Positions 15,186-34,700 are shown, counted from the first letter of the stretch. The stretch: 35,005 bases of DNA from an uncultured bacterium (GCA_937951485.1 CALEDJ010000063.1:1-35005), one strand, 5' to 3'. Notes: generated by a model not told the origin, from the sequence alone. Program-made: numbers and translations.

Positions 15186-15320
15186 GGTGTTGCCTTCCTC
15201 AAATTCGCGGTGGGTTCCATTTCGCCAGGCTTCATTTCCCCTGCCCTGTGTTGTATTTTTCCGTCGCCGCAATCGGCGCGGCGGTTCGGAGACGGCAGAG
15301 GCAGATACCGTCGTTGCGCC

Positions 15321-15399
15321 ATTGTAGCACAGATGCCGCAGCGGCGGTTTTCTCAGCCTGCAGAAACTCTGGTGCATTTTCGGGCATATGGTGTACAAT
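15321..15399. promoter_or_regulatory. Divergent promoter region with TACAAT boxes on both strands
   Basis: The 251-base spacer separates two outward-reading genes. On the minus strand a TACAAT (15321-15326) is preceded by TGTGC, an extended -10, with no good -35. On the plus strand TACAAT at 15394-15399 lies 38 bases before the start at 15437, again with a poor -35. Two GGTGCA direct repeats flank the plus-strand box (about 15371 and 15401) and could be an activator site. Confidence 0.35.
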
Positions 15400-15436
15400 A
15401 GGTGCACTGCATAAGGGGCCGTTGAGGGGATTACGC

Positions 15437-17122
15437 ATGATTCCTCCGGAGGAACAGGAGCATTTCCGCAGGGCGCGGCGGCTGTATGAGCAGGGTAGAC
15501 CGGCGGAGGCGCTGGTGCTGCTGGATGATTTGGATCGCCGTCTCCCGAATCTGGCGGATGTGCTGTATGCGCGGGCGGTCTGCATACACGCGCTGGGCCG
15601 GGAGTATGAGGCGAACCTGCTGTGCAACAAGTTGAGCCACCTGCATGGCGACGCGCGAGCGCGGCGCCTGCAGGCGCTCTGGCGGGCGCGGCGCCTGGAT
15701 GCCGCCAATGCGGGGGTGGGCAAGGGGGGGGGAACCCCGGGACCGTTGGATTGGGAGACGGATGCTTTGGGGAAAGCGGTGACTATGGATGGGGGGGAGG
15801 AGGAAGGGGATGCTGCAGGGGAACATGCGAACAACACAGCATGGGTCGGGTTATCGCCGCCGGCTGGCGCGTTTCCTGTCCGGGGGAGTCGTCCAAACGA
15901 CCCGGAAATTATCCAGCGGTTGTTGGGGGGGCTGGCAGGCCGCGACGCGGTGAACGCGTTGTATGAACTCTGTGAGCGGGTCGGGGAAGCGGACCTGCCG
16001 ATGCTGCATGAGATGCTTCGGCGGCATCGGTCGCGGCGGGTGCGCGAGGGACTGGTGAGGTTGCTGGGCTATATCGGGTCGCCGGAATCCGTGGGGCCGT
16101 TGTCGGAGACGCTGCTCCAGGATACGCATGTGTTTGCGCGGGTGCGCGCGGCGGAGGCGCTGGGGCGGATGCATACCGAGGAGGCGCTGTCGGCGCTGGA
16201 GCAGGCGATACGGGAAGACGGGGCATCGCGGGTGCGCGCGGATGCGCTGGTGGCCTATCACCGCATTGCGGGCGCGGACCGCTTTGCGCAGTTTGCATCG
16301 AAACTGGAAGCAAAAGGCAACGGCGAAACGGCGCGGGTGTTGTCGTGGCTGCTGGGGCCGTTGAGCGGGCATGGGACGGAACCCGCGGCGATTGCGCCGG
16401 GCCGGATTCGCTACGGGTATGTTTCGGGCACATTATACGGCGTGTATCTTCCGCCAGGGGAGATTGCAGAGGGGCCGCCGGGGGTGCTGGTGGTGATTCA
16501 CGATTATATGGCGCTTCCGGAAAGCGTGGAGCCGTTGATGGAACAATTCCGGGCGGATGCCGCATCGCATGGCATGGCGATCATTGCGCCTTATTTTGAT
16601 CACCCCACGTTCCCCAATTTCGGGATGCTCAACATCGGGTTGCAGCGGACGCGGGCGGATTTGCGTCTGTTCGAGATACTGGACGCGGTCAGCAGGAATA
16701 CGCCGCTGCGGCTGGACCGGTTCATGCTGTATGAACATGGCCCGGCGCGGGGCTTTGTCAATTGGTTCGCATTGGCCTACCCGAAGCGCGTGGAACGCGC
16801 GGTGGTGTGTCTGCCGCGCCGTTTTGCGCCGATGAATGAGGAATTTCCATTCCCGTTCGGATTGCGGCCGAGTCCGTTAGCGCCGGAACTGGGACGTCCG
16901 TCGGCGGAACTGTTCCTGGGCGTTCCGCTGCTGCTGCTGGCGGCGAAGAAAGGTTCGGAAACGACCACGCAGGAATTGGAACAATTCCAGGCGGCGTTGG
17001 CGACGCGTATGGCGGTCCGGGACATGCCACTGCGCGTGCACCTGGAAGTACTGGCAACCGCGAATGAGGTGCGCGTGGAGGGCCTGGAGCGCGCGCGCGC
17101 GTTCCTGTTCGGCGAAGAGTGA
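15437..17122 (+). CDS. TPR-HEAT repeat protein fused to an alpha/beta-hydrolase-like domain lacking the nucleophile
   Basis: The ATG at 15437 follows GAGGGGA; the 63-residue open extension upstream has no ribosome site and crosses the promoter region. The product has 561 residues. The first 90 residues form TPR-like helices (RRLYEQGRPAEALVLLDDL). A Gly/Glu-rich linker follows. Residues about 155-310 are HEAT/PBS-lyase repeats (LLGYIGSPESVGPLSETL, RAAEALGRMHTEEALSALE). The rest matches secreted-type alpha/beta hydrolases (VLVVIHDYMALPES, YFDHPTFPNFGML, NWFALAYPKRVERAVV). The usual YGHSGGG elbow reads YEHGPARG, with Gly435 where Ser belongs, so hydrolase activity is doubtful. No signal peptide is seen. 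A scaffold or binding role is inferred. Confidence 0.85.
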   Translation: MIPPEEQEHFRRARRLYEQGRPAEALVLLDDLDRRLPNLADVLYARAVCIHALGREYEANLLCNKLSHLHGDARARRLQALWRARRLDAANAGVGKGGGTPGPLDWETDALGKAVTMDGGEEEGDAAGEHANNTAWVGLSPPAGAFPVRGSRPNDPEIIQRLLGGLAGRDAVNALYELCERVGEADLPMLHEMLRRHRSRRVREGLVRLLGYIGSPESVGPLSETLLQDTHVFARVRAAEALGRMHTEEALSALEQAIREDGASRVRADALVAYHRIAGADRFAQFASKLEAKGNGETARVLSWLLGPLSGHGTEPAAIAPGRIRYGYVSGTLYGVYLPPGEIAEGPPGVLVVIHDYMALPESVEPLMEQFRADAASHGMAIIAPYFDHPTFPNFGMLNIGLQRTRADLRLFEILDAVSRNTPLRLDRFMLYEHGPARGFVNWFALAYPKRVERAVVCLPRRFAPMNEEFPFPFGLRPSPLAPELGRPSAELFLGVPLLLLAAKKGSETTTQELEQFQAALATRMAVRDMPLRVHLEVLATANEVRVEGLERARAFLFGEE

Positions 17123-17126
17123 GGGG

Positions 17127-17495
17127 TCAGCGGCGTTTGAGGCGCTTTACGAGTTTTGCAATCCACACGCTGATCATGTCTTCGCCGAGTTCGCGCAACA
17201 GATCAATGCCTTCCTTGCGCGCGATGGCGACGGCGCGCGCGCGGGCCATTTCGCGGGCGCGGCGGCGCTCTTCGGGAGTGAGGCGGCCGCCGGGGCGCGT
17301 CGCCTTGAGGGATTCGACATAGGCACGGTAGGTTTCCTCGACAGCGGCTTCGAGCGCCTGGATCGCACGCAAATAACGTCTGCGGCGCAGCCGCGCATAA
17401 CACGCGCCTCCCTTGAACAGGGTCCAGATCGCGCCCATGATCGCGCCGAGAAGGGTGATACCGGCTTCAGTGCTGAGGATGGTGGTGAGGTTCAT
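17127..17495 (-). CDS. Small phage-cluster membrane protein with basic helical tail
   Basis: The start at 17495 gives 122 residues: an N-terminal hydrophobic segment (about residues 8-30, GITLLGAIMGAIWTLF) followed by a long, very basic helical region rich in Arg and Lys. It is last in the minus-strand phage cluster, immediately downstream of the M15 peptidase, where a holin or spanin-like lysis accessory is often encoded. No family signature is recognised, so a lysis role is positional inference. The ribosome site is weak (AAAGG). Its stop is 4 bases from the convergent hydrolase-fusion stop. Confidence 0.6.
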   Translation of the reverse strand: MNLTTILSTEAGITLLGAIMGAIWTLFKGGACYARLRRRRYLRAIQALEAAVEETYRAYVESLKATRPGGRLTPEERRRAREMARARAVAIARKEGIDLLRELGEDMISVWIAKLVKRLKRR

Positions 17496-17525
17496 GGTGG
17501 GGGCCTTTGCTGGGTTGGGGGAATG

Positions 17526-17561
17526 AGTCAGACGAATCAGACAGATCGGACAGATCGGACC
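17526..17561. repeat. Period-9 array overlapping the 3' end of the M15 peptidase gene
   Basis: Four 9-base units of the form ATCGGACAG run from the intergenic gap into the last codons of the M15 gene, so the protein's C-terminus (WVRSVRSV) is encoded by repeat sequence. No inverted partner is evident here. Confidence 0.6.
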
Positions 17562-18085
17562 CATGGGTCGGCGCTGTTGGATGCCGCTGCGCCGCGCCCA
17601 CCCTGCGTTGGCGTGGCGCGGAAGCGGTTGTCGGCGTGGACGTGGCCGTCGCGGTAATCGTCTTTGACGAAGTCGAAGTGTCTCCGGCAGACGCTGCCGA
17701 GGGTCTTCTGGGGCACGCGCGCGCGGGTGGCGGCGGTGACGGCGATGAGGTCCACGGCGATGCCGCCGTACCGGGCGAGGTGGCGGGAATCGCGGGCGAC
17801 GGCGCCGCCCTGATCGGTCCAGCCGAGCCGCGCAGCGAGGCGTTCGAGATCGGCTTGCGTGCGCACCGCGTTGGTGATGATGATCCAGACATCGGTGCGG
17901 TGCATCGCGCAGAGGTCGCGGCGGGTTTTTTCGAGGGAGACGAGGGTGTCGGCGTGGACCATCGCGAGGCCCTCGGGATTCTCGAACTCGCGGAGCCGAA
18001 AATGGCTGATCGGCTCGCCGTCCAGCAGACACAGCAGCGGGATGTCGTTCCTGCCGCACGGGGGACGGGGGTCATTCTGCTGCAT
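17537..18085 (-). CDS. Phage-type M15 peptidase (candidate endolysin)
   Basis: The ATG at 18085 has AGGA 10 bases upstream, and the upstream gene's stop lies 13 bases before it; an earlier in-frame ATG overlaps that stop but has no ribosome site. The product has 182 residues. The zinc ligands of the M15 family are in place: His102 and Asp112 in SRHLARYGGIAVD, and His150 in GHVHADNR. M15 enzymes are D,D-carboxypeptidases or L-Ala-D-Glu endopeptidases that cut peptidoglycan cross-bridges and serve many phages as endolysins. It has no signal peptide, so export would need a holin. The last residues are encoded by a period-9 repeat and may be a recent addition. Confidence 0.8.
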   Translation of the reverse strand: MQQNDPRPPCGRNDIPLLCLLDGEPISHFRLREFENPEGLAMVHADTLVSLEKTRRDLCAMHRTDVWIIITNAVRTQADLERLAARLGWTDQGGAVARDSRHLARYGGIAVDLIAVTAATRARVPQKTLGSVCRRHFDFVKDDYRDGHVHADNRFRATPTQGGRGAAASNSADPWVRSVRSV

Positions 18086-18098
18086 ATCCGGGCGATCC

Positions 18099-18620
18099 TC
18101 ACACATAGACGCGGGCGTCGGTGATGTAACCGTTGACACCGTCGTTGCTGTTTTTGATGCAAGTCATACCCGGGCGCAAATGCAAGTGCGCCAGGGCGAG
18201 ACAGTGGGCGTCGGCGTTGGGGGGAGCGGGCGATGCCGCCTCGTTGCCGCGTTTTACGCTGACACTCCAGGTGTCGAGGTTCGCTTGCACGAGGTCAATG
18301 CGGTTTTGCGCGGCCGGCGGGGGGATTTCGGCGGTTTCGGTCGTCTGCGTGAGGCGGAAGGGGTACCTGCTGATGAAGGCTGCGCCGGGCCGCACGTGGA
18401 CGGTCAGGCCGGGGGACGGCGTGGCGACCACCTTGAGGTCGTCGGCGGTGAAGCCGCGCACAACGCCGTTGCCCCCGCCCCAGGCATGACACAGCAGATG
18501 AAATGCCAGTTCAAGGGCGGCTTCGATGCGGTCGTCCCAGAGGTTGAGTTTGGCGGATGCCACAGGGCGTTCTTCAAAAGACCAGGTGGTCTTGAGGTAA
18601 GCAGGACCGCGAATGGCCAT
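18099..18620 (-). CDS. Phage tail-fibre or baseplate-like protein
   Basis: The ATG at 18620 follows GGGAGAA and gives 173 residues (MAIRGPAYLKTTWSFEERPV at the N-terminus). A 45-residue open extension upstream is built from repeat sequence and looks like a false hydrophobic leader. The N-terminal third is helical; a Gly-rich loop (WGGGNGVV) leads into a beta-rich region (LTVHVRPGAAFISRYPFRL) of the kind found in small fibre or receptor-binding proteins. The order tail hub, this gene, endolysin fits a distal tail component. No named family is certain. Confidence 0.65.
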   Translation of the reverse strand: MAIRGPAYLKTTWSFEERPVASAKLNLWDDRIEAALELAFHLLCHAWGGGNGVVRGFTADDLKVVATPSPGLTVHVRPGAAFISRYPFRLTQTTETAEIPPPAAQNRIDLVQANLDTWSVSVKRGNEAASPAPPNADAHCLALAHLHLRPGMTCIKNSNDGVNGYITDARVYV

Positions 18621-18649
18621 GGTGGGTTCTCCCGGGGTTGGGGAAGGGA

Positions 18650-18849
18650 CTGAAAAGAGGACGGAAGGCACAAAAGGGACCGAAAGGACGGCAAGGACAA
18701 CAAGGACGGCAAGGACATCAGGAATGAAAGACACAACAGCGGGGACGAAAGACACAACATAGACGCCAATGGCGCATGCCGCCGATGCTGCGCCGTCTAT
18801 TGTGCGTGTGCTTGCTGTCCTTTTCGTCCTTTTCGTCCTTTCTCAACAG
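18650..18849. repeat. Long imperfect inverted repeat built from period-9 GGAC arrays
   Basis: This gene-free 239-base spacer lies inside the phage cluster. The left arm (18650-18751) has about ten 9-base units (AAGGACGGC type) and the right arm (18812-18846) has four opposite units (TTTCGTCCT). Between them ACACAACATAGACG (18750-18763) faces CGTCTATTGTGCG (18794-18806), and GGCGCA / TGCGCC forms the inner stem. The whole spacer can fold as one long imperfect hairpin. In one frame it reads as hydrophobic residues. Confidence 0.75.
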
Positions 18850-18859
18850 GTGGGCTCCT

Positions 18860-20599
18860 TCAATCAAGGTGGTAGCCCATGTCGAGGCCGACGGCGTCGT
18901 CGTCAAGGCGGAACTCGAAGAGGCTGCGGGCGCTTTCCTGGCCGCGCACGATGAAGTGCAGGGGATTGCGCACGGAGCGCAGGGGGGAGCCGAGCAGGGC
19001 GGTGGTGGTGACGCGCTTGCCGGAGAAGCGGTGTCGCACGAGGCGCACGCGGCCCACGTGTTGTCCGGCGAATCTTCCGCCCCACTCGCCGGGAAGTTCG
19101 CGGTCCAAGCGGCGCAGAGGCAGTCCGCGCAATGCGACAAGGTCGCCGACGCGGATGTCCGGGTCGCCGTGATGGAAAATCACCTGGCCGGCGGGTTCGG
19201 GCCATGCGAGGTCTTCGAGCAGGCCGGCAGCGAGTTTCTCCGCGTCGTCCCGGCGGGTGAGCGAGAAATAGGCCAGGTGCGCACTGCGCAGACCGTATTC
19301 GCCGATGCTTTCCGGGCGGCTTACGCTGAATGGCGCGAGCGCGCTGAGGGGATGCCCTTCCACCGTGAGGTAGTTGACGATGCCTCGCGAATCGGAGCCG
19401 AGATGGATGCCGTTTTTTGTGGGATCGAAATAGACGACGCGGTCGGTGATGTCGGCGCGGCGGAAGCGGACCGCGAGGTCGGGGTCCACGGAGAAGACAT
19501 AGCCGTTCGCCATGCAGGCCAGCGCGGTGAGCACCTCGATGACGCCGCCTTTCACATCGAAATCGCTGAGAATTGCGTCAGTATTTTCGATGGAATCGTC
19601 ATGCCTGCCGACATACGAGTAGAATTCTTTGAGGGCCATTTCAGGCACATGATAGCGGCCATCCTCCCAGAGATAGACATCGGCAAGCCCCTGCTCCACC
19701 AGCGCGGCGTTGAAGCACTCGCCGCCCCCGAAGGCCAGGCCGAGATAACGTCCGTAGGCGTCCACGCGGTCGTCGAACGCGCCGTTGGCGTCGCGGTGCG
19801 GGTTCAACTCGATGAAGTCTATGCCCTTGGTGTCAATCAGGTGCTGGAGGAAAGCGGTCGCGGCATCGGCGCGGCGCTTGTAGGGGCCGGCGTCATACTG
19901 CGCGTCGGTCCATCCGGCGACTTCGGGGTGGCGCTTGACGGCGTGGGCGTTGCGCGTGCGTTCCTCGGCGTCAATCAGCATCATGCGGAGGTCGGGCCAG
20001 GGCATGCCGTCCACGACAATGCCCGCGATGGTGTCGCCGTCCTTGGCGCAGGCGTGGGAGAGGTCCATGCGGTCCGCGCCGACCCATTGGCCTTCGCTGA
20101 TGCCGCCGTGTTCGAGTTCGTTTTCGTCGGTCTTGCGGGTGAGAAACTTGGCGAATTCGCGCTGCGCGCCGTCGGGATAGGCGTCGTGCGCGACGGTGTA
20201 ATGGATGGGGCCGGGGGCGGCGTTGATGACGTCTTTGACGGCGGCGCTGATCTCGCGCTGCACGCATGCGCGGGAGACGCGGGTGTTTCCGGCGCGGATG
20301 GGGCTGCGTGCCTCGATTTCGAGCAGTTCGTGGAAGGTGACGTAGCGGTCGAGGATGAGTTTTTGGGTGTCGCTCCAGCAGGGCCGCAACAACTCGACGT
20401 GGCCTTCGCAGACGCGTTCGCCGTCCAGCCGGACCACCACGCGGTAGGCGTGGCCGAGGTCGGGCGTGTCGGCGGGGAGCAGGCCGCGGATGCAGTCGGC
20501 GTCGTCCGGCGTGGCGCGGATCACGTCGAGCAGCGGCACCTCGTCGAAGATGGCGATGCGGCGGCCCCAGGTGTCGTAGAGAATGACTTCGTAATGCAT
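18860..20599 (-). CDS. Phage tail-hub protein with an inserted staphylococcal-nuclease-like domain
   Basis: The ATG at 20599 lies 2 bases after the previous stop, with GGTGGTAA as ribosome site, giving 579 residues. The N-terminus (MHYEVILYDTWGRRIAIFDE) and the C-terminal half (about 340-579) resemble siphophage tail-hub or Tal/Gp37-like proteins that follow Dit. Residues about 176-335 match thermonuclease: DGDT (187-190), Arg205, LIDAEE with Asp210 and Glu213, and YGR with Arg284. These correspond to Asp19/Asp21, Arg35, Asp40/Glu43 and Arg87 of the Staphylococcus enzyme, so calcium-dependent nuclease activity is likely retained. The domain could cut DNA at or after injection, or be a toxic payload. 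Placement as hub is inferred from order and general fold. Confidence 0.8.
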   Translation of the reverse strand: MHYEVILYDTWGRRIAIFDEVPLLDVIRATPDDADCIRGLLPADTPDLGHAYRVVVRLDGERVCEGHVELLRPCWSDTQKLILDRYVTFHELLEIEARSPIRAGNTRVSRACVQREISAAVKDVINAAPGPIHYTVAHDAYPDGAQREFAKFLTRKTDENELEHGGISEGQWVGADRMDLSHACAKDGDTIAGIVVDGMPWPDLRMMLIDAEERTRNAHAVKRHPEVAGWTDAQYDAGPYKRRADAATAFLQHLIDTKGIDFIELNPHRDANGAFDDRVDAYGRYLGLAFGGGECFNAALVEQGLADVYLWEDGRYHVPEMALKEFYSYVGRHDDSIENTDAILSDFDVKGGVIEVLTALACMANGYVFSVDPDLAVRFRRADITDRVVYFDPTKNGIHLGSDSRGIVNYLTVEGHPLSALAPFSVSRPESIGEYGLRSAHLAYFSLTRRDDAEKLAAGLLEDLAWPEPAGQVIFHHGDPDIRVGDLVALRGLPLRRLDRELPGEWGGRFAGQHVGRVRLVRHRFSGKRVTTTALLGSPLRSVRNPLHFIVRGQESARSLFEFRLDDDAVGLDMGYHLD

Positions 20600-20601
20600 G
20601 G

Positions 20602-21288
20602 TTACCACCATCGGTCGCGAAAGCGGATAATCGCCGTGGCGCAAGGCGACGCTTCGGCGAGACCGGTCCAGGTGAGGGTCGCGCCGTGGGGCGCGACGCA
20701 CGGAAACAGCCCCTCCGCATAGGGCGTGACATCCGTGTCTTCCCAGACCACGCGGGCCGACCCGCCGTCGAAGACAATCGTCTCGCCGGCGGCGACGCGG
20801 CCGGGATAGGCGATGCTGCGGCGGTCGTCGGTGATTGCGATATTCTCCAGGGGGGTCAGGGCGGTCAGGGCGATGGTCAGCGGCGCTTCGGCGTTGCCGT
20901 TCGTCTGAACGTGGACGGTCGCGCCGGAGGCGGCGATTTCCCACGCCAGTTCAGTTTCATCCAGCGCGACCTCATAGGGGTTGCGCGCTTCGAGATGCAG
21001 CGTGAATGCGCCGGACGGCGGGTCGCGGCGCACATCGCGGATGAAGCCCGTGCGCCGCACGAACAGACAACGGCGGGGCCGCAAGACGAGCGGGGTGTTG
21101 TCGGCGCGATCGGAGGCGGACGCGAGGATGGCGTCGAGCGCGGCCTCGACGGCTTCCGGAGTGGAAGGGTCTTCGATCACGCCCTTGATTTGGATGACGC
21201 GGGCGTCGCGCCCGCCGATTTCCGCGTGTTTTTCGGAGACGGCGGTGCGGGCGGGGTCGAAGGCGTGGTCGCCGAGGAGGATGGTCAT
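20602..21288 (-). CDS. Dit-like distal tail protein
   Basis: The ATG at 21288 follows GGAG and gives 228 residues. A 36-residue open extension upstream is encoded by the period-9 array and reads like a signal peptide (FLSLLFLLSLPSF), so it is probably spurious. The N-terminal half (ILLGDHAFDPARTAVSEKHA, ending NPYEV) and the C-terminal beta-sandwich (LTPLENIAITDDRR, GETIVFDGG) fit the two-domain plan of siphophage Dit proteins, which form the ring joining tail tube to hub. It is tightly coupled to the hub gene. There is no tail-tube or tape-measure gene for it to join. Confidence 0.7.
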   Translation of the reverse strand: MTILLGDHAFDPARTAVSEKHAEIGGRDARVIQIKGVIEDPSTPEAVEAALDAILASASDRADNTPLVLRPRRCLFVRRTGFIRDVRRDPPSGAFTLHLEARNPYEVALDETELAWEIAASGATVHVQTNGNAEAPLTIALTALTPLENIAITDDRRSIAYPGRVAAGETIVFDGGSARVVWEDTDVTPYAEGLFPCVAPHGATLTWTGLAEASPCATAIIRFRDRWW

Positions 21289-21323
21289 GGGGGGAACTCC
21301 GGGTAGGCGCGGCTGCGCCGGGG

Positions 21324-21395
21324 AAAAGGACGGCAAGGACAACAAGAACAACAAGGACAGGAAGGTCCGTTGTGGCCGGTCTCCAGACCGTGCCA
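21324..21395. repeat. Period-9 GGAC array followed by a separate hairpin
   Basis: In the 143-base gap between adaptor and Dit genes, 21324-21362 holds four to five 9-base units (GGACGGCAAGGACAACAAG type). A distinct hairpin follows at 21373-21395: TGGC-CGGTCT-CC-AGACCG-T-GCCA. GGTCTCCA recurs at 21410-21417. No gene is visible here, although head-completion and tail-tube genes would be expected at this point. Confidence 0.65.
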
Positions 21396-21431
21396 CGCAG
21401 GCGATCGAAGGTCTCCAATGCCCCTGCTGCG

Positions 21432-21842
21432 TTATCCCAGCACCGGCTGGGAGTTGGTGATGGCGGCGGGGACGCGGACGGGCGGCCGCCGCAGGAATGG
21501 CGCGAGGGCGTTCCAGGCGGCGTTTTCGGTTTCGGCGCTGTATTGCATCAATGCCGCGAAGCGGCGCGCAGGGCCGATGCGGTGGCCGCCGATGGCGATT
21601 TCCTTCTGGTGCGCGGCGTCTTTGGCGGCGAGGGAGCGCATGAGATGCGCGCCGGCAAGCAGCGTCTCGCCGAGGACAAGCAGGTCGTCGGGCGGGTCCG
21701 TGGGCGCGTGGGGGTCGAGCAGCAGGAGGATTTCAGCGTGGGCGTCGGCGATGCTTCGCGTGATGATCGCATCCGGGACCAGGACGGCGTCGTCGAGTTG
21801 AAACTTCTCGCGCACGGCGTTTTCAGTCGTAAATGACGGCAT
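21432..21842 (-). CDS. Phage head-tail adaptor (gp6/DUF1320-like)
   Basis: The product has 136 residues and follows a GGGAG ribosome site. It is mostly alpha-helical with the common adaptor opening (MPSFTTENAVREKFQLDD), a helical bundle (TRSIADAHAEILLLLDP, LVLGETLLAGAHLMRSLAAKD) and an RRFAALMQYS segment. Adaptors of this type form the ring attached to the portal. It lies directly downstream of the capsid gene, the usual place. No head-closure gene follows. Family assignment is by size, helix pattern and order. Confidence 0.65.
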   Translation of the reverse strand: MPSFTTENAVREKFQLDDAVLVPDAIITRSIADAHAEILLLLDPHAPTDPPDDLLVLGETLLAGAHLMRSLAAKDAAHQKEIAIGGHRIGPARRFAALMQYSAETENAAWNALAPFLRRPPVRVPAAITNSQPVLG

Positions 21843-21935
21843 GAGACGGTCTCCCGGAAAAGTTGATGGAAGGGCCGCGGAGGCGGCTGGGGCGTGCGCG
21901 CCTCCGCGGCATGGGGTGGGAGTGGAGGGAAAGGG

Positions 21936-22988
21936 TCAGGGGGTCCAGGCGCTGTTCAGCACAACCCGGCCCTTGGCGTAGATGATCACGAAGTCGGTGA
22001 CGACGGTGAGGTAGGTGCGGTCCCACTGCTGGTTGATGAGTTTGTCGCTTTCGACCAGCAGGTCCTGTTCGGTCAGTTTCTGGACCGCATATCCGGCGTC
22101 GAGGAGGGTGATCATGCCGTCGGGCTGATCGGCGAGAGGGGTCAGTTTCACGCCGAGGGGGGTGGGCAGGTTGCCGGTTTTGGCGAAGTCGAAGAGGGCG
22201 CTGTCCTTGATCTCGGCGAGGTTGAGGATCGCGGCGAGGGTGTCCGCATTGGCGAGCATGTGCGTCGGGGTGAAGTAGTGTTCGAGGGTGAGCGCGTTGA
22301 ATCCGGCGACAAGGTCGGCGTAGGTCCAGGTGTGCGCCGTCTTCGTATTGATGATGCGGGCGGCGGTTTCCGGGCCGGAGGCATCGCCGTACACGAGCAC
22401 GTGGGCGAGGCGCTTGTCGAGGTTGCGGCCGAGGCTTTCGCCGATGCGGCGCAGATGCACGCGGAGCATGTCCACGGACATGCGGCGCACGACCTCGTAG
22501 GAGGCGATGACGCCGCGCCCGAACTTGTCGAGCCGGACCACGCGGTCGCCGTAGGTGATCTCCGATTCGGGAATGGCGGCGCCTTCGGCGACCAGGCGCA
22601 GTTCCTCGTTCTCCTCGCTTTCCTTGACGTAAGGCACGTCGTAGGCCGTGCTCTGGATGTGCTCGTCACGGATGATCAGCGCGGGGTAGGCGGGCTTGCG
22701 GGTCATGCCCGCGATGACCGCCTCGCGCACGATGTCCGGAAAGAGCCATTTCGCGTTCGGGTCGGATTGGAAGAACCTGTCCACGGTGATGCGACTGAGG
22801 TCCGCGCCGAATTCCTGGGCGCAGTAGTCCTGAAGCGACGTGCCGATCGCGCGGAAATACTGCGCGTGGCTCAGACCCAGCCCGTCGAGAGTCTCGTAGA
22901 GTTCGCGGCCGCGGATGGCCCGAAGTTTTTCGGGCTCCTGGCCGAGAAAACGGATTTGGTCTTTGATCAATGCGCTGTCATGTCGCAT
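21936..22988 (-). CDS. Phage major capsid protein, HK97-fold type
   Basis: The product has 350 residues and starts after AGGAGCCGCCC. The N-terminal 110 residues are helical, as in a delta or scaffold-like arm. The central part (VPYVKESEENEELRLVAEGA, ITYGDRVVRLDKFGRGVIAS, DMLRVHLRRIGESLGRNLDK) and the C-terminal P-domain-like region (TPTHMLANADTLAAILNL, LTEQDLLVESDKLINQQWD, VVTDFVIIYAKGRVVLN) fit capsid proteins of Mu-like and HK97-like phages. The frame is intact. Neighbours (decoration protein upstream, adaptor downstream) support the call. Confidence 0.85.
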   Translation of the reverse strand: MRHDSALIKDQIRFLGQEPEKLRAIRGRELYETLDGLGLSHAQYFRAIGTSLQDYCAQEFGADLSRITVDRFFQSDPNAKWLFPDIVREAVIAGMTRKPAYPALIIRDEHIQSTAYDVPYVKESEENEELRLVAEGAAIPESEITYGDRVVRLDKFGRGVIASYEVVRRMSVDMLRVHLRRIGESLGRNLDKRLAHVLVYGDASGPETAARIINTKTAHTWTYADLVAGFNALTLEHYFTPTHMLANADTLAAILNLAEIKDSALFDFAKTGNLPTPLGVKLTPLADQPDGMITLLDAGYAVQKLTEQDLLVESDKLINQQWDRTYLTVVTDFVIIYAKGRVVLNSAWTP

Positions 22989-23001
22989 GGGCGGCTCCTT
23001 T

Positions 23002-23382
23002 CTACAGCAGGACGTGGACGACCGAAGCCGCCGCGTCCACTTTCAGGTTGCGGCCCGCGCCGTTCCCGGCGGCGGGCGCTTTCACGCGGCCCGGTTCTTC
23101 CGACGCCGTCACGCCGGTCACGCCGTCCACCGCGGGGGCGGGGCCTTCGTAGGCGAACAGCGCGATGCCGCGCACCATGACGGGCAGCGCGATATCGTTG
23201 AGGGCCGCGTCGGCCATGGCCTGTCCGAAGACGGGGTCTTCGTCGTCCGCGATGTTGCTGACGGTGTAGGGGCCGACCAGTTTCAATGCGTCGCCTTTGC
23301 GGATGGCGACTTCTCCTTCATCGGGGGTCCGGCAGGTGATGACCAGTTCCGTCACCGCGCCGCCGACATCTCCAAATGCCAT
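23002..23382 (-). CDS. Capsid decoration protein (DUF2190-like)
   Basis: The product has 126 residues after an AAGGAGCACC ribosome site. It is beta-rich with alternating short hydrophobic strands (ITCRTPDEGEVAIRKGDALKLVG) and an Ala/Gly/Pro-rich C-terminus. Small beta proteins of this type directly upstream of the capsid gene are usually decoration or cement proteins. It ends 13 bases before the capsid gene and is probably translated with it. The assignment is from size, fold impression and position. Confidence 0.65.
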   Translation of the reverse strand: MAFGDVGGAVTELVITCRTPDEGEVAIRKGDALKLVGPYTVSNIADDEDPVFGQAMADAALNDIALPVMVRGIALFAYEGPAPAVDGVTGVTASEEPGRVKAPAAGNGAGRNLKVDAAASVVHVLL

Positions 23383-23424
23383 GATGGTGCTCCTTTGTGA
23401 TTTGTTGTTGCAGGTCTGTTGTTC

Positions 23425-24132
23425 TCACCCGCCCCAGAGAATCTCCAGGGCGCGTTCCGCGCCGGCGCTCTTGCCGGTTTCTTCGGGCAGGCGCTCCGGG
23501 CGCGACACGGGTTCCGGCGGGTATTTCCGGTCAAAACGCGCTTCGAGCGACTCCAGGTGCCTGAAGACCTCGCGCAGCGAGAGCGGTTCGAGCGTCTTGC
23601 GCCACACCGCCTCGTCAAAGCCCGCGCCGTCGAGTTCGCGGCCCAGCCCGACGAAGCGCGCCAAGGCGCGGCGGCGCGCTTCCAGGCCGTCGGCGATTAA
23701 TTGCGCGGCGCGATGCGGCGCGCAGCCCGTTTCCGCCAAGGTCTCGCAGACAGCACGGAGGCAGGCCGGGGGCAGGCCGTCCACGCGCTCCGCGCGGAGG
23801 ATGCGCACGCCGTTGCGGCCGTGGAGCGCCAGTTCGCCGCCGCGCGCATCGCGTCGCAGCCAGCGGTACGCGCCGTCATCCTCGCGCACGGCGTCGCCGT
23901 CCTGTTCGAGCCACGAGGCGGGATGCGGCGCTTTCTCGGCGGCCCAGACCTCGTCGTCCAGGGTCTCGGCGTCCACGCGCCAGCCGAGGCAATAACCGTC
24001 CTGTTCGAGGCGCAGGTCCAGATGCGGCCCCTGCGCATCGCGGTGGCGGTGGATCACGAAGCGTTCCTCCGGCGGGCCAGAGGCCGCCGCGTCATGTTTC
24101 CGGCTTTCCAGGCAAACCAGTTTCCAATACAT
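23425..24132 (-). CDS. LigD-type 3'-phosphoesterase-like protein in the head module
   Basis: The ATG at 24132 follows GGGGAGA and gives 235 residues. The N-terminal half resembles the phosphoesterase domain of bacterial NHEJ ligase LigD: FVIHRHRDAQGPHLDLRLEQ followed by LGWRV and, further on, PHPASW. His37, Asp39 and Arg41 match the metal and phosphate ligands (HYDFR in LigD) and His70 matches the DHP motif His. The first His is shifted by one position (His30). LigD PE domains trim 3'-phosphates and ribonucleotides from DNA ends. The C-terminal half is helical and Arg/Glu-rich with no ligase or polymerase domain. Such a protein between head genes suggests processing of packaged DNA ends, which is inference. 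Confidence 0.7.
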   Translation of the reverse strand: MYWKLVCLESRKHDAAASGPPEERFVIHRHRDAQGPHLDLRLEQDGYCLGWRVDAETLDDEVWAAEKAPHPASWLEQDGDAVREDDGAYRWLRRDARGGELALHGRNGVRILRAERVDGLPPACLRAVCETLAETGCAPHRAAQLIADGLEARRRALARFVGLGRELDGAGFDEAVWRKTLEPLSLREVFRHLESLEARFDRKYPPEPVSRPERLPEETGKSAGAERALEILWGG

Positions 24133-24161
24133 TGCGGTTGCGGTCTCCCCGTGTTGCGGTT

Positions 24162-24350
24162 TCAGATCAGTTGCCGCGCCAGCGTCACGAGCGCGCCCGC
24201 GAGGTTCGCGATCAGCAGCATCATGCCGCGCGCGAGCATGCCCTCGAGCCGGTTCACGCGCTCCTTCAGATCGCGCAGGTCTTCCTTCAGACTGTTGAAT
24301 TGCAGCGTGTAGGCCGCCTGATGGCGGCAATCTTGATGCGGGTCGTGCAT
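24162..24350 (-). CDS. XhlA-like coiled-coil membrane peptide (candidate holin-associated)
   Basis: The ATG at 24350 follows AAGGA; the protease stop lies 19 bases upstream. The 62-residue product has an amphipathic coiled-coil helix (about 17-38, LKEDLRDLKERVNRLEGML) followed by one membrane helix (about 41-58). This is the plan of XhlA-type haemolysin/holin partners of defective Bacillus prophages. Its place between the protease and phosphoesterase genes, far from the endolysin, is unusual for a lysis gene. Confidence 0.6.
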   Translation of the reverse strand: MHDPHQDCRHQAAYTLQFNSLKEDLRDLKERVNRLEGMLARGMMLLIANLAGALVTLARQLI

Positions 24351-24369
24351 GGTTGGATTCCTTTGCAGA

Positions 24370-25089
24370 TCATTCATCGGCCCAGGTGCGCCGCGAGAAA
24401 AGTTCGATCGGCGCGTGGAAGGCGCGGCGGGCCTGTTCCAGCGCGACGAGCGTCGGCAGCGCGCGGGTCTGCGCCACGAAGCCGGTGCCCTGCGACCCCG
24501 ACGGCACCACGGAGCCTTCGATGACACCCAGCACGTCGCGCATGATGAAGTGACACTGCTTGCCGCCGTATTCGCGGCCGGGCGCATGGTTGCACCTGCG
24601 CAGGTCCTCGCCGCAGATGGAGCACTCCGGCAGGCGGAAGGAGAAGCCGATGGACGTCTCGCGATAGACCCCGCCCTCGATGTTCTGGATGAACGCCGCG
24701 TTTTCCGGTGTGCGCAGCACATACACATCAGGCCGCACGGAGACGCGGTCACCGTCGTGGTGCAGGCAGGACCGGAAGAAGGTGCCGCGCGGCAGCGATC
24801 CGCGCAGGTCATGGCGCTCCATCAGTGGACGCCCCGGCGTCATCCGGTTGATCTTCTCCAGTTCCTCTTCGGGGAAGCGGCTGAAATGGCGGTCCACCTG
24901 GTTGTGGCAGAGGTCGAGCGTGAAGACGGCGAATTCCTCCGGACGCAACGGGCGCAGCGCGAAACGGTTCACCGCGGACGCGATGTCATCAGCGGCATCC
25001 GGCGCGGGCGCGTCCGTGGCGGCGGCATCCGCCGCGCGCATGCCGATCACCCAGCCCTCGCGCTGGAAGACAAAAGGGTCGAGGTCCAT
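24370..25089 (-). CDS. Prohead protease-like protein with a Cys/His zinc-type cluster
   Basis: The product has 239 residues and starts after AGGAGATACCCCC. The central part (TPGRPLMERHDLRG, NIEGGVYRETSIGFSF) resembles prohead proteases acting on capsid arms before packaging. An insertion follows with CSICG, CNHAPG, YGGKQC, a four-ligand Cys/His pattern found in a subgroup of these proteins, before the conserved EGSVVPSGSQGTGF stretch. His95 of MERHD and Ser of YRETS are candidate catalytic residues, but I cannot assign the triad firmly. It lies between portal and capsid genes, the expected place. Confidence 0.65.
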   Translation of the reverse strand: MDLDPFVFQREGWVIGMRAADAAATDAPAPDAADDIASAVNRFALRPLRPEEFAVFTLDLCHNQVDRHFSRFPEEELEKINRMTPGRPLMERHDLRGSLPRGTFFRSCLHHDGDRVSVRPDVYVLRTPENAAFIQNIEGGVYRETSIGFSFRLPECSICGEDLRRCNHAPGREYGGKQCHFIMRDVLGVIEGSVVPSGSQGTGFVAQTRALPTLVALEQARRAFHAPIELFSRRTWADE

Positions 25090-25117
25090 GGGGGTATCTC
25101 CTTGGTGTCGGGGTGTC

Positions 25118-25220
25118 TATGGACAGGATGGACGGAATGGACAGGATGGACGATGCTGGGGCACACACACTGCAACTGCAATTTCATTCATTCTGTCCAT
25201 CCCGTCCATATCGTCCATTA
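25118..25220. repeat. Compact inverted pair of TGGAC arrays
   Basis: The 232-base gap between the portal and protease genes has no gene. The left arm (25118-25155) is four 9-base units with core ATGGACRGRATGG; the right arm (25189-25220) is its inverse (CTGTCCATCCCGTCCATAT). About 30 bases of unrelated sequence separate them. This is the cleanest hairpin-forming member of the family. Confidence 0.8.
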
Positions 25221-25321
25221 AACAGCGTCGTCTTGCAGGGTGAATGAAACAGCGCGGAACCCGCCACAATCCTTGAGGACAGCCGATGGGTTTCTCTTTG
25301 CTGCCCCGCCTTATGAACCAT

Positions 25322-26584
25322 TCACGCGAGTTTTCCGGGGAGGTTGAGCATGGCGGCGGCGGTGTCGTGGTCGGTGAAGCCGAGTTCCCGCAGCCGCGCG
25401 GCGTTTTCGATTTCGCGGGCGCGGGCCTGTGCCGCCTTCAGGATGTCCACGGTGCGGTTGGCGCGCATGTGGACGCGAGCGCGCGCTTCGCCCCACATGA
25501 GGGCGAGTTCAAAGTTGTAGAGCCGCTCCAGGATGCGCTTGACCGCGCGGTTCACTGCTTCCACCTGCCGGTTCACGATCTCGAACTGCGCGGTGCCGTA
25601 GGTTTCCGTTGTGCCGTAGTTGCGGCCGATTAAAATCGGCATCAGGTGCATGCCGGTGATGACCTGCTCCTCGATGGCCTTGTGGTTCTCGTAAAAAACG
25701 TGGGCGGCCTGCCCGCCCTGGACCAAAGAAACCTTGACATTATCGTAGGTGACGAGGTTCTGGTCTGGCGAGAGGCCGCTGAGTTTGGATCGCAGCGTTT
25801 CGAGGTTCTGTCCCATCCGCGCCTGGTAGTCCTCGACGCTTTCGCCGCGCCGTCGTTCTTCAGGGACATATTGCACATGGAGTTTGCTCCAGCCGGCGTT
25901 GTGCGTCGCCTTGGCCATGTCTTCGAGCAGCCGCTGCTGGATTTTCACGACAAAGGGGATGCTCCGGAGCATGGACCTGCCGTAGGGATTGCTGCCGTCG
26001 CGGTCCATGCCCACATAGATGAAGCGTTCCGCGGGCAGCGGGATCATCTCGCCATCGTGGAGTTGATAGGGCAGCAGTCGCCCGCCTTCGCGCTTGAATC
26101 GGACGGTCCACACGTCCACCGGCACGACGTCCCAGATGGATTCGCGGCTGTGGGTCAGCACGATTTCCAGGGCGGCCGCGCCGTAGGTAAAGAGCGATGC
26201 GTAGAAGATGTCGAGCAGGCCGTCCATGCCCCGGTCGCCGCTGTTGACGCGGCGGTTCAGTTCATCCAGCAGGCGGCGGGCGCGGCGATCGGCCACGCCG
26301 GAACTCGCGTCGTGGATTTCGATGTCGAAGCCGGTCTGGCAGAGGCGCTTCCAGGTCCAGACCGCGTCGGAGATGTCGGGAATGGCGTCGCGCAGGTACC
26401 GATAGACGCGGAGCATTTCGAAGGGCGTCTCGTTCGGCAGCGGAATGCACTGATCCGCCGCCGCCGCGATGCGCGAGTGGTCTTCGGGCCGGGAGGCCGT
26501 GCGAAAGGTTTCCGCCGGTCCCGATGCGCGGGCCGCGCCGTTCCCTTTGCGCCGCTTCATCCATCGTCCAAGCCAGGTGGTCAT
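25322..26584 (-). CDS. Phage portal protein (DUF935/Mu gp29-like)
   Basis: The product has 420 residues after a GGAG ribosome site. Family features include YRYLRDAIPDISDAVWTWKR near the N-terminus, LFTYGAAALEIVL, RFIYVGMDRDGSNPYGRSML (the conserved YG-x-S block), NLVTYDNVKVSLVQGG, and a long C-terminal helical region (FEIVNRQVEAVNRAVKRILE). Portals form the dodecameric DNA gate of the head. It is the first gene of the block; upstream there is no terminase, only 146 bases and then a gene on the other strand. With no packaging motor encoded here, DNA loading would need a terminase from elsewhere. Confidence 0.85.
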   Translation of the reverse strand: MTTWLGRWMKRRKGNGAARASGPAETFRTASRPEDHSRIAAAADQCIPLPNETPFEMLRVYRYLRDAIPDISDAVWTWKRLCQTGFDIEIHDASSGVADRRARRLLDELNRRVNSGDRGMDGLLDIFYASLFTYGAAALEIVLTHSRESIWDVVPVDVWTVRFKREGGRLLPYQLHDGEMIPLPAERFIYVGMDRDGSNPYGRSMLRSIPFVVKIQQRLLEDMAKATHNAGWSKLHVQYVPEERRRGESVEDYQARMGQNLETLRSKLSGLSPDQNLVTYDNVKVSLVQGGQAAHVFYENHKAIEEQVITGMHLMPILIGRNYGTTETYGTAQFEIVNRQVEAVNRAVKRILERLYNFELALMWGEARARVHMRANRTVDILKAAQARAREIENAARLRELGFTDHDTAAAMLNLPGKLA

Positions 26585-26730
26585 TGTCGGTACTCCGCGT
26601 TTGACGCCGATATGTTTCCACTAAATAGCCGCGCACGTTGCACTGGGCAACCCATCGCTTCCGGACATGTGGATAACGCGGCTGTATTCGGTTTACTCTA
26701 TGTGCCAACCAAAGCATGGAAAGGACCGCG

Positions 26731-27795
26731 ATGAATGCCCGCGAATTGTTCCTGAGCATCATGCACTACGAGGCGTTTGACCGGATGCCGGTGTTTCACT
26801 GGACGGGTTGGCCGGAGACGCTGGCGCGGTGGCGGTCGGAGGGGTTTCCCGAAGGCGCGTCGGAGCAGGAGTTTTTCCAGGCCGCGCCGTTGTGCCGCGG
26901 CATCCCAATCAACCTGGGGTTGTACCCGTTGTTTGAAGAGGAAGTCTTTGAAGAGACGGATGACTACCGGATCATGCGGCAGAACGACGGGGTGGTGGCG
27001 CAGATTTACAAGAACAAATCGAGCATCCCGCATTATGTTGATTTTCTGCTGAAGGACCCGTCGGGCTGGCCGGAATACAAGAAGCGCTTGCAGCCCGATC
27101 CGGCCCGGATTCCCGCCGATTTTGATCAGCAACTCAAATCACTGCGCGCCGGCGACGCCCCGGTGGCCATCCACACGATGAGTTTCGTGGGATTCTTGCG
27201 CAACTGGATGGGCGTGGAAAACATGGCCTTGGCCAGCATGATCCATCCCGATTTCTTCGCCGAAACCGTGGAGATTATCGCCGACCTCGTCTGCTGGGCA
27301 ATAGACCTCGTCGCGGACAAGATTAAGATCGATCTTGGGTGGGGCTGGGAAGACATCTGCTTTCGCACGGGACCACTGATTCACCCGGACCGCTTCCGCG
27401 ATTTGTGCGGCCCCGGATACCGCAAGGTGGCGGACCGGCTGCGCGCACACGGATGCGACCTGTATTTGGTGGACTGCGACGGGTTCATTGATCATTTGAT
27501 TCCCCACTGGCTGGACAACGGGGTGAACCTCATGTTCCCGGTGGAAATCGGCGCATGGGGGGCGGACCCGTTGGCGATGCGGCGCAAATACGGCAAAGAA
27601 CTACGCATCTTCGGCGGCATTGACAAACTGGCGCTGGAAAAAGGCCCGGCCGCCATTGACGCGGAAATCGAACGGCGCATGCCTCTCATGGCCGAGGGCG
27701 GCTTTGTGCCCCTCCCTGACCACCTCATCACCCCGGACACGCCGTTGAGTCATGTGCAGTATTATCTCGACCGCATCCGCGCGCTGCGGTTTTGA
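26731..27795 (+). CDS. Uroporphyrinogen decarboxylase (URO-D) family protein
   Basis: The ATG at 26731 has AAAGGA 6 bases upstream; an ATG 15 bases earlier lacks one. The product has 354 residues of the URO-D barrel superfamily (AFDRMPVFHWTGWPETLARW, DLYLVDCDGFIDHLIPHWLD, LRIFGGIDKLALEKG, GGFVPLPDHLITPDTPLS). True HemE enzymes carry different N-terminal Arg motifs. This type is the divergent group common in Lentisphaerae and Hydrogenedentes, which includes corrinoid methyltransferases of the MtaA/MtbA kind. No corrinoid protein gene is adjacent. Methyl transfer is possible but unproven. A HAD hydrolase gene follows. Confidence 0.85.
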   Translation: MNARELFLSIMHYEAFDRMPVFHWTGWPETLARWRSEGFPEGASEQEFFQAAPLCRGIPINLGLYPLFEEEVFEETDDYRIMRQNDGVVAQIYKNKSSIPHYVDFLLKDPSGWPEYKKRLQPDPARIPADFDQQLKSLRAGDAPVAIHTMSFVGFLRNWMGVENMALASMIHPDFFAETVEIIADLVCWAIDLVADKIKIDLGWGWEDICFRTGPLIHPDRFRDLCGPGYRKVADRLRAHGCDLYLVDCDGFIDHLIPHWLDNGVNLMFPVEIGAWGADPLAMRRKYGKELRIFGGIDKLALEKGPAAIDAEIERRMPLMAEGGFVPLPDHLITPDTPLSHVQYYLDRIRALRF

Positions 27796-33247: not shown

Positions 33248-33276
33248 TTGACCGATCCAACGCGGCGTGCTAGAGT
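33248..33276 (+). promoter_or_regulatory. Sigma-70-like promoter with extended -10 before the sigma-54 activator
   Basis: TTGACC (33248-33253), 17 bases, then TAGAGT (33271-33276) preceded by TGC. It lies 35 bases before the start at 33312 and repeats the TTGnnn-N17-TGC-TAGRnT pattern seen before 10862. Confidence 0.55.
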
Positions 33277-33311
33277 CTAATCGGTGGATCTTTTGTTCCA
33301 GGAGTACATTC

Positions 33312-34700
<1,389 letters not shown>

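Follow-up and report, generated by a model that had tools for sequence, protein, structure and literature searches.

Why would a bacterium keep a compact, intact set of phage head and tail-tip genes among ordinary chromosomal genes? The question is raised by contig C63 (35,005 bases, referred to as the window) of a Candidatus Hydrogenedentota genome (4.55 Mb, 77 contigs), whose closest named relatives are Candidatus Hydrogenedentota metagenome-assembled genomes (MAGs). Twelve intact minus-strand genes with short intergenic gaps occupy positions 17127-26584, and non-phage chromosomal genes on the plus strand abut both ends (Table 1); this arrangement, together with the gene order proposed in a first-pass annotation of the window, was borne out. 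Terminase, tail tube, tape measure, integrase and replication genes were not found in the window. With a probability of about 0.7, the cluster is interpreted in this work as the main locus of a phage particle that Hydrogenedentota domesticated long ago, that is encoded at several loci and passed on vertically, and that works in the manner of a gene transfer agent (GTA). It was probably inherited from the common ancestor of the phylum, and these bacteria probably make their own virus-like particles.

Distribution and architecture of the cluster in Hydrogenedentota

Sixty-eight genomes of the host order were surveyed, 38 of them high-quality; the closer relatives were all in this order and the next genomes merely belonged to the same domain, so the order was taken as the entire phylum in the dataset. 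The cluster was present in all 11 families of Hydrogenedentota surveyed, nearly always as a single copy: the portal gene in 56 of the 68 genomes (36 of the high-quality ones; 60 and 37, respectively, for ribosomal protein L2, used as a control) and the capsid gene in 52 (about 58-80% identity to the window capsid). The two high-quality genomes without a portal gene, G034 and G054, both carried the orthologous terminase described below, and only G058 and G066 showed no component whatever.

The order portal, protease, g3b, g4, g5, capsid, g7, Dit (distal tail protein), hub, g10, (g11), g12 was preserved, with near-constant gene lengths, in about 28 named loci, each scored to its contig end. Of the gene set and flanks for which the first-pass annotation suggested searching related genomes, the gene set was confirmed in these loci and the flanking genes mostly differed. 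The recurrence of the same genes in the same order throughout the phylum is far beyond chance. In G006 and G029, the portal-to-g4 and g5-to-g12 parts were on different contigs and interior to each, so the cluster is physically split in these genomes with both parts kept. Several relatives also had an extra gene between protease and g3b or after g12, encoding a protein of 267-622 aa with a signal-peptide-like N-terminus, unusual for a phage fibre, and a fibre-like C-terminus (L040:848-2716, L049:6822-8501, L052:6828-8501 and L056:11065-12072).

Three architectures were found: the full cluster; a cluster without hub and g10 which keeps g7 and Dit, in f10 genera such as those of G017, G047, G011 and G022; and a head-only cluster (portal, protease, g3b, g4, g5, capsid, g11 and g12), in family f7 and in f10 genera g28 and g22. 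The hub is really absent: hub and g10 were lost in f7 and most of f10, and under a loss-only model the ribosomal tree implies at least three hub losses. The hub gene of G005 (L055:6567-8315) had one in-frame stop, and that of G009 (contig C3) an apparent frameshift toward g10; these defects are either assembly errors or early decay.

A dedicated terminase at a separate locus

The lack of a terminase, stated in the first-pass annotation, holds for the window but not for the genome. Pfam scans of the phylum (PF03237 and PF03354) retrieved sporadic prophage terminases only, and the conclusion that no dedicated terminase exists, first suggested by these scans, was overturned by a search with the large terminase subunit (TerL) from L101, a related element belonging to another phylum (phrog_2, 2.2e-26). 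TerL-like open reading frames (ORFs) were detected in 37 of the 38 high-quality genomes, a few of them prophage paralogs. The TerL of the window genome (486 aa) is encoded on contig C19 between TolB/SmpB and superoxide dismutase genes, and orthologs with 55-75% identity to it were present in about 50 genomes. Across 16 orthologs, the Walker A (DGRDVGKT) and Walker B (VDEAQE) motifs and the RNase H-type acidic residues (D301, D356 and D456/D458) were invariant, so that the predicted protein has both the ATPase motifs and the nuclease acidic triad by which a TerL is recognized. The gene was about 1 kb from the cluster in G016 and unlinked in the other genomes.

A short helical gene (RxRKAxKELExxC motif) was located just upstream of or near TerL at 28 of the searched TerL stretches; in G050 it overlaps the start of TerL, and in G063 it abuts TerL. 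By its position it is a candidate for the small terminase subunit (TerS). A 3D-domain gene (PF06725, peptidoglycan-enzyme-type) also recurred beside TerL in several families (Table 1; also at the TerL loci of G004, G009, G011, G035, G038, G041 and G047), and may assist the packaging locus in lysis or at the cell wall. By homology, the head cluster comprises an HK97-type capsid, a portal, a maturation protease and a scaffold domain, and a conserved TerL, probably with TerS, lies at a site unlinked from it. The split locus using a terminase elsewhere and the domesticated particle, proposed in the first-pass annotation as separate options, hold together.

Inheritance and selection

A tree of concatenated portal, protease, g4, g5 and capsid sequences (46 genomes, 1329 columns) was compared with a ribosomal tree (2877 columns), using 1000 label shuffles as the null. 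The two had 26 of 43 splits in common, 22 of them supported in both (shuffle maximum 4); TerL shared 17 of 40 splits with the ribosomal tree and 17 of 39 with the cluster tree (shuffle maximum 3). Pairwise dN/dS (NG86, unsaturated pairs) was about 0.02-0.45 for the cluster genes and 0.03-0.19 for TerL, far below 1, against the values near 1 that the first-pass annotation named as a refutation of its reading; dS was saturated in several comparisons, and the close pairs G044/G050 and G048/G052 carry most weight. These values and trees indicate purifying selection on cluster and TerL and diversification in step with the host, and the phylum-wide, vertically inherited cluster agrees with the domesticated particle of the first-pass annotation.

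Two unusual DNA-acting domains in particle proteins

The N-terminal part of g4 is a LigD-type 3'-phosphoesterase (PE) domain: PDB PE domains were matched by profile (2.9e-7), the top 7 Foldseek PDB matches to the predicted fold were all LigD PE, and residues H30, H37, D39, R41 and H70 were conserved at 90% or more. Searches with a hidden Markov model (HMM) of full g4 proved misleading for the presence of PE, owing to fused ORFs (L033/L034) in the alignment, and a PE-only HMM was substituted; with it, the strict PE motif was present in 47 of 53 genomes. With both the fold and the catalytic residues, g4 is predicted to be a 3'-phosphoesterase. It has the same fold and His/His/Asp/Arg/His active-site residues as the LigD PE domain, but its fusion partner, within a virion cluster, is a phage scaffold-type domain and not a DNA ligase. 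The C-terminal helical domain of g4 shares homology with the C-terminal part of protease fusions found in a second phylum, and in a sister genus (G001/G002) the protease is fused straight to the scaffold domain and PE is missing. PE would then reach the procapsid as a passenger of the scaffold domain.

The hub has a gp27/VgrG-type fold (AlphaFold model, pLDDT 86; structure search 8e-13 for hub/VgrG folds and 2e-6 for staphylococcal nuclease, SNase), with an inserted SNase domain above the PF00565 cut-off. R209, E217 and R288 were invariant and D214 conserved at 90% or more; equivalents of staphylococcal nuclease R35, D40, E43 and R87 are kept and the domain is apparently active, in line with the first-pass remark on a nuclease-carrying particle. 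Searches with hub and g4 (tblastn) gave zero matches among phage records.

Gene content of the window

Genes were identified with PHROGs, Pfam and profile searches of PDB, and the hub via structure (Table 1). Gene starts were inferred, several lying further in than the longest ORFs (revised starts: g4 24132, g8 21288, g9 20611, g10 18620 and g12 17495). The portal, protease, capsid, Dit and hub labels of the first-pass annotation were confirmed; its peptidase (g11) is weakly supported, by endolysin families, and its fibre (g10) was not established. H93 and S146 of the protease were invariant, and the enzyme is putatively of the His/Ser type. H102, D112, H148 and H150 of g11 were also invariant; g11 had no Pfam match and none clear in PDB, where the search gave noise, and g7 had no family match. 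By look, g3b is XhlA/holin-like, its role being putative, and g12 is holin-like. The functions of g7, g10, g11, g12, g3b and TerS were assigned from position or weak matches.

Table 1. Features of the window (contig C63) and of the terminase locus in the same genome. PE, 3'-phosphoesterase; SNase, staphylococcal nuclease.
Feature	Position	Strand	Evidence or remarks
HEAT/TPR protein, left flank	15248..17122	+	non-phage
g12, small membrane-anchored protein	17127..17495	-	N-terminal hydrophobic segment; conserved last cluster gene
g11, putative M15-like peptidase/endolysin	17537..18085	-	phrog_465 endolysin in 4/8 members, best 2.3e-4
g10, virion structural/baseplate-type protein, fibre unproven	18099..18620	-	phrog_1220 3e-7, phrog_20556 1e-4
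Tail hub (g9) with inserted SNase domain	18860..20611	-	AlphaFold model, PF00565
SNase insert of hub	about 19646..20059	-	
Dit-like distal tail protein (g8)	20602..21288	-	phrog_33 2.6e-7; SPP1 gp19.1 (2x8k) 3.9e-6
g7, putative head-tail adaptor	21432..21842	-	position only; about 139 aa, conserved, directly after capsid gene
Major capsid protein (HK97-type, PF25209)	21936..22988	-	phrog_3922 2.2e-49, PF25209 9e-14
g5, decoration/virion structural protein	23002..23382	-	phrog_4588 6e-4; about 127 aa everywhere
g4, LigD-type PE + C-terminal helical scaffold-type domain	23425..24132	-	PDB profile, Foldseek
PE domain of g4	about 23779..24132	-	
g3b, 62 aa, coiled-coil + transmembrane	24162..24350	-	family kept between protease and g4 in most loci
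Prohead/head-maturation protease	24370..25089	-	phrog_16951 1.7e-33; conserved Cys/His motif
Portal protein (Mu/DUF935 type)	25322..26584	-	phrog_3753 2.9e-51, PF06074 1.4e-10
URO-D-like protein, right flank	26716..27795	+	non-phage
477-aa protein with ATPase- and HTH-like parts	33267..34700	+	phrog_7998 6.5e-62, phrog_731 4.4e-33
TerL	C19, about 17654..19114 (L202:9055-10515)		phrog_2 1.5e-20
3D-domain protein	L202:8512-8955		PF06725

The GC content was 65.5% in the 12-gene block vs. 61.7% in the remaining window, and a promoter/terminator scan gave no signal exceeding shuffles. Short degenerate tandem repeats (GTCCATCCTGTCCAT type) were present in the portal-protease gap (25110-25330) and upstream of g10 (near 18700). 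The 477-aa protein encoded outside the cluster, with parts resembling an ATPase and a helix-turn-helix (HTH), matched phage families of unknown function.

Viral relatives and lineages outside the phylum

No close relative of the cluster was found in IMG/VR, and capsid and portal scans of viral contigs returned nothing; the nearest phage capsid was 34% identical, and the 47 viral relatives of TerL had about 34% identity or less. Outside the host order, a capsid relative was detected in 13 of 318 genomes, including all three genomes of f40, from the second phylum (about 49% identity in G096). G243 (L323) and G378 (L324) had a head-only cluster of portal, protease-scaffold fusion, g5 and capsid, terminating at an opposite-strand gene; in G096 (L325), TerL was located two genes after the capsid gene.

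In f154 (G210 and G347, from two genera), the decoration, capsid, g7, Dit, protease and g10 genes were clustered, with the G347 block among housekeeping genes (NADH dehydrogenase-type, SAICAR synthetase and CTP synthase); this is possibly another domesticated particle. The two clusters were compact and had near-identical gene sizes (L327:3463-10169 in G347 and L329:422-7166 in G210). Since g7 and Dit are adjacent in f154 too, the missing tube may be ancestral to the group instead of a recent loss. Among the open-licence PMC papers searched, no link of Hydrogenedentota to GTAs or capsids was found; an induced provirus has been reported for one Hydrogenedentes MAG (PMC9377139).

Proposed mechanism and alternative explanations

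In a domesticated particle working like a GTA, host DNA would be packaged and, we infer, transferred. TerL would dock on the portal and load the heads, once matured by the protease, with any chromosomal DNA that it engages; filling would be non-specific because replication and integration genes are missing from both loci and the motor is encoded apart from the head genes. The 3'-phosphoesterase, fused to the scaffold, would enter the procapsid and could clean the 3' ends of packaged DNA, tailed lineages would add a very short adaptor-Dit-hub tip with the nuclease domain on the hub, and the small membrane proteins and the peptidase would free the particles through lysis. Least certain of these steps is the delivery of DNA into other cells, given that hub and g10 have been lost in some lineages, and in others together with g7 and Dit.

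Several points weigh against this interpretation. The match between trees, good as it is, is imperfect (4 supported conflicting splits), and many of the genomes surveyed were fragmented MAGs. By genome-wide search, the hub was found in only 24 of the 38 high-quality genomes and in none of f7, and a hub nuclease is unexpected in a DNA-delivery device. No conserved tape measure was found with the one Pfam model tried (PF10145, sporadic in the phylum, none in G000), a weak negative, and inspection of the cluster, the only place covered, revealed no tail tube. Particle formation, packaging and transfer are all predictions from gene content.

The losses of tail genes would fit a domesticated DNA capsule without gene delivery: a head filled by the motor and put to use within the producing cell, or set free by lysis, to serve for instance in the processing, storage or removal of DNA. 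In f7 and most of f10, hub and g10 are missing from the whole genome or from the cluster, and head-only clusters have also dropped g7 and Dit, yet selection has retained TerL, portal, capsid, protease and the PE-scaffold gene. The particle proteins also include two domains that act on DNA, PE and SNase. Most lineages, however, keep Dit, hub and g10, and the lysis-type g11 and g12 persist in the head-only lineages too, which points to release; for the system as a whole, a capsule of this kind is unlikely. Slightly better odds, still well short of even, attach to a narrower proposal for the head-only Hydrogenedentota and the second phylum: a terminase-driven, protease-matured, DNA-filled head would have been kept and the tail mostly or wholly discarded, leaving a capsule with a scaffold-borne 3'-end-processing enzyme and a host function other than injection.

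The apparently active SNase domain of the hub, and the secreted fibre-like gene in the cluster of some relatives, would suit a weapon or interference device, either a lysis-released tailocin-like particle or a capsid-based block on infecting phages. Such a device is improbable: TerL, portal, protease and capsid are needless for a killing particle, yet strongly conserved, and the nuclease hub is entirely absent from head-only lineages. Less probable again is a prophage remnant with neat deletions, an option of the first-pass annotation, or repeated infections by one phage group. The structural genes all derive from tailed phages, and some genomes of the phylum do carry terminases and tape measures of genuine prophages, here and there; but the cluster is phylum-wide and nearly single copy, with host-congruent trees and low dN/dS, TerL is unlinked, no relatives of capsid or portal turned up on viral contigs, and the readable relatives carry the block compact or split, never inside a full prophage. 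A functional temperate prophage would have integration, replication, packaging and tail genes in one mobile block; such a block was not found, TerL being elsewhere. Decayed prophage and active phage were rejected, as was encapsulin, since portal, protease and TerL are present.

Comparison with known systems and significance

GTAs are viriforms (e.g. RcGTA, BaGTA and BhGTA/VSH-1) defined by six features (PMC9662315), three of which were found here: caudoviricete-derived proteins for predicted caudovirion-like particles (portal, capsid, protease, Dit, hub and TerL all have tailed-phage homologues); endogenization over several loci (TerL beside housekeeping genes, head cluster split in G006 and G029); and mostly vertical inheritance with co-diversification (trees far above shuffles, near-universal single copy). 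The other three features are particles mostly filled with random host DNA, a GTA genome that cannot be packaged in full, and delivery of the packaged DNA to other cells. Depending on the length of DNA packaged, the unlinked loci would make packaging of the whole GTA genome implausible, and the loss of hub, and of Dit in some lineages, argues against DNA delivery in those lineages. The system appears GTA-like in all that sequence can show, and is not filed as a proven GTA.

Like RcGTA, BaGTA and BhGTA, it has caudoviricete-derived head genes at several loci, vertical co-diversifying inheritance and its own TerL; unlike them, it arose in another phylum from another phage ancestor, extends over an entire phylum (11 families), has a cluster lacking tail tube and tape measure, includes head-only lineages, a PE-scaffold fusion and an SNase hub, and is described from its genes. 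Tailed phages whose capsid and portal belong to phrog_3922 and phrog_3753 (e.g. Enterococcus phage fHoEfm07 and fecal phages MT836604/MT835508) have homologues of both proteins, but with just about 26-34% identity to the present ones; fHoEfm07 shows a similar head order (portal, protease, small gene, capsid, adaptor) but has terS, terL and tape measure in one locus. The Faecalibacterium FpGTA candidate (PMC12946183) is likewise a compact GTA-type cluster with head genes (10.5 kb, ten ORFs), but has TerL and TerS inside the cluster, packaging data and no reported phylum-wide conservation.

The formally recognised GTAs go back to three independent events of exaptation, which took place in Alphaproteobacteria and Brachyspira (PMC9662315). 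A packaging machine of viral origin that is as universal in its phylum as a ribosomal protein would rank among the oldest and broadest bacterial viral domestications, and could be used to test why GTAs are maintained. Such systems can escape standard Pfam terminase searches and single-locus prophage callers, and the naturally tail-less lineages make the purpose of GTA-like particles a directly testable question.

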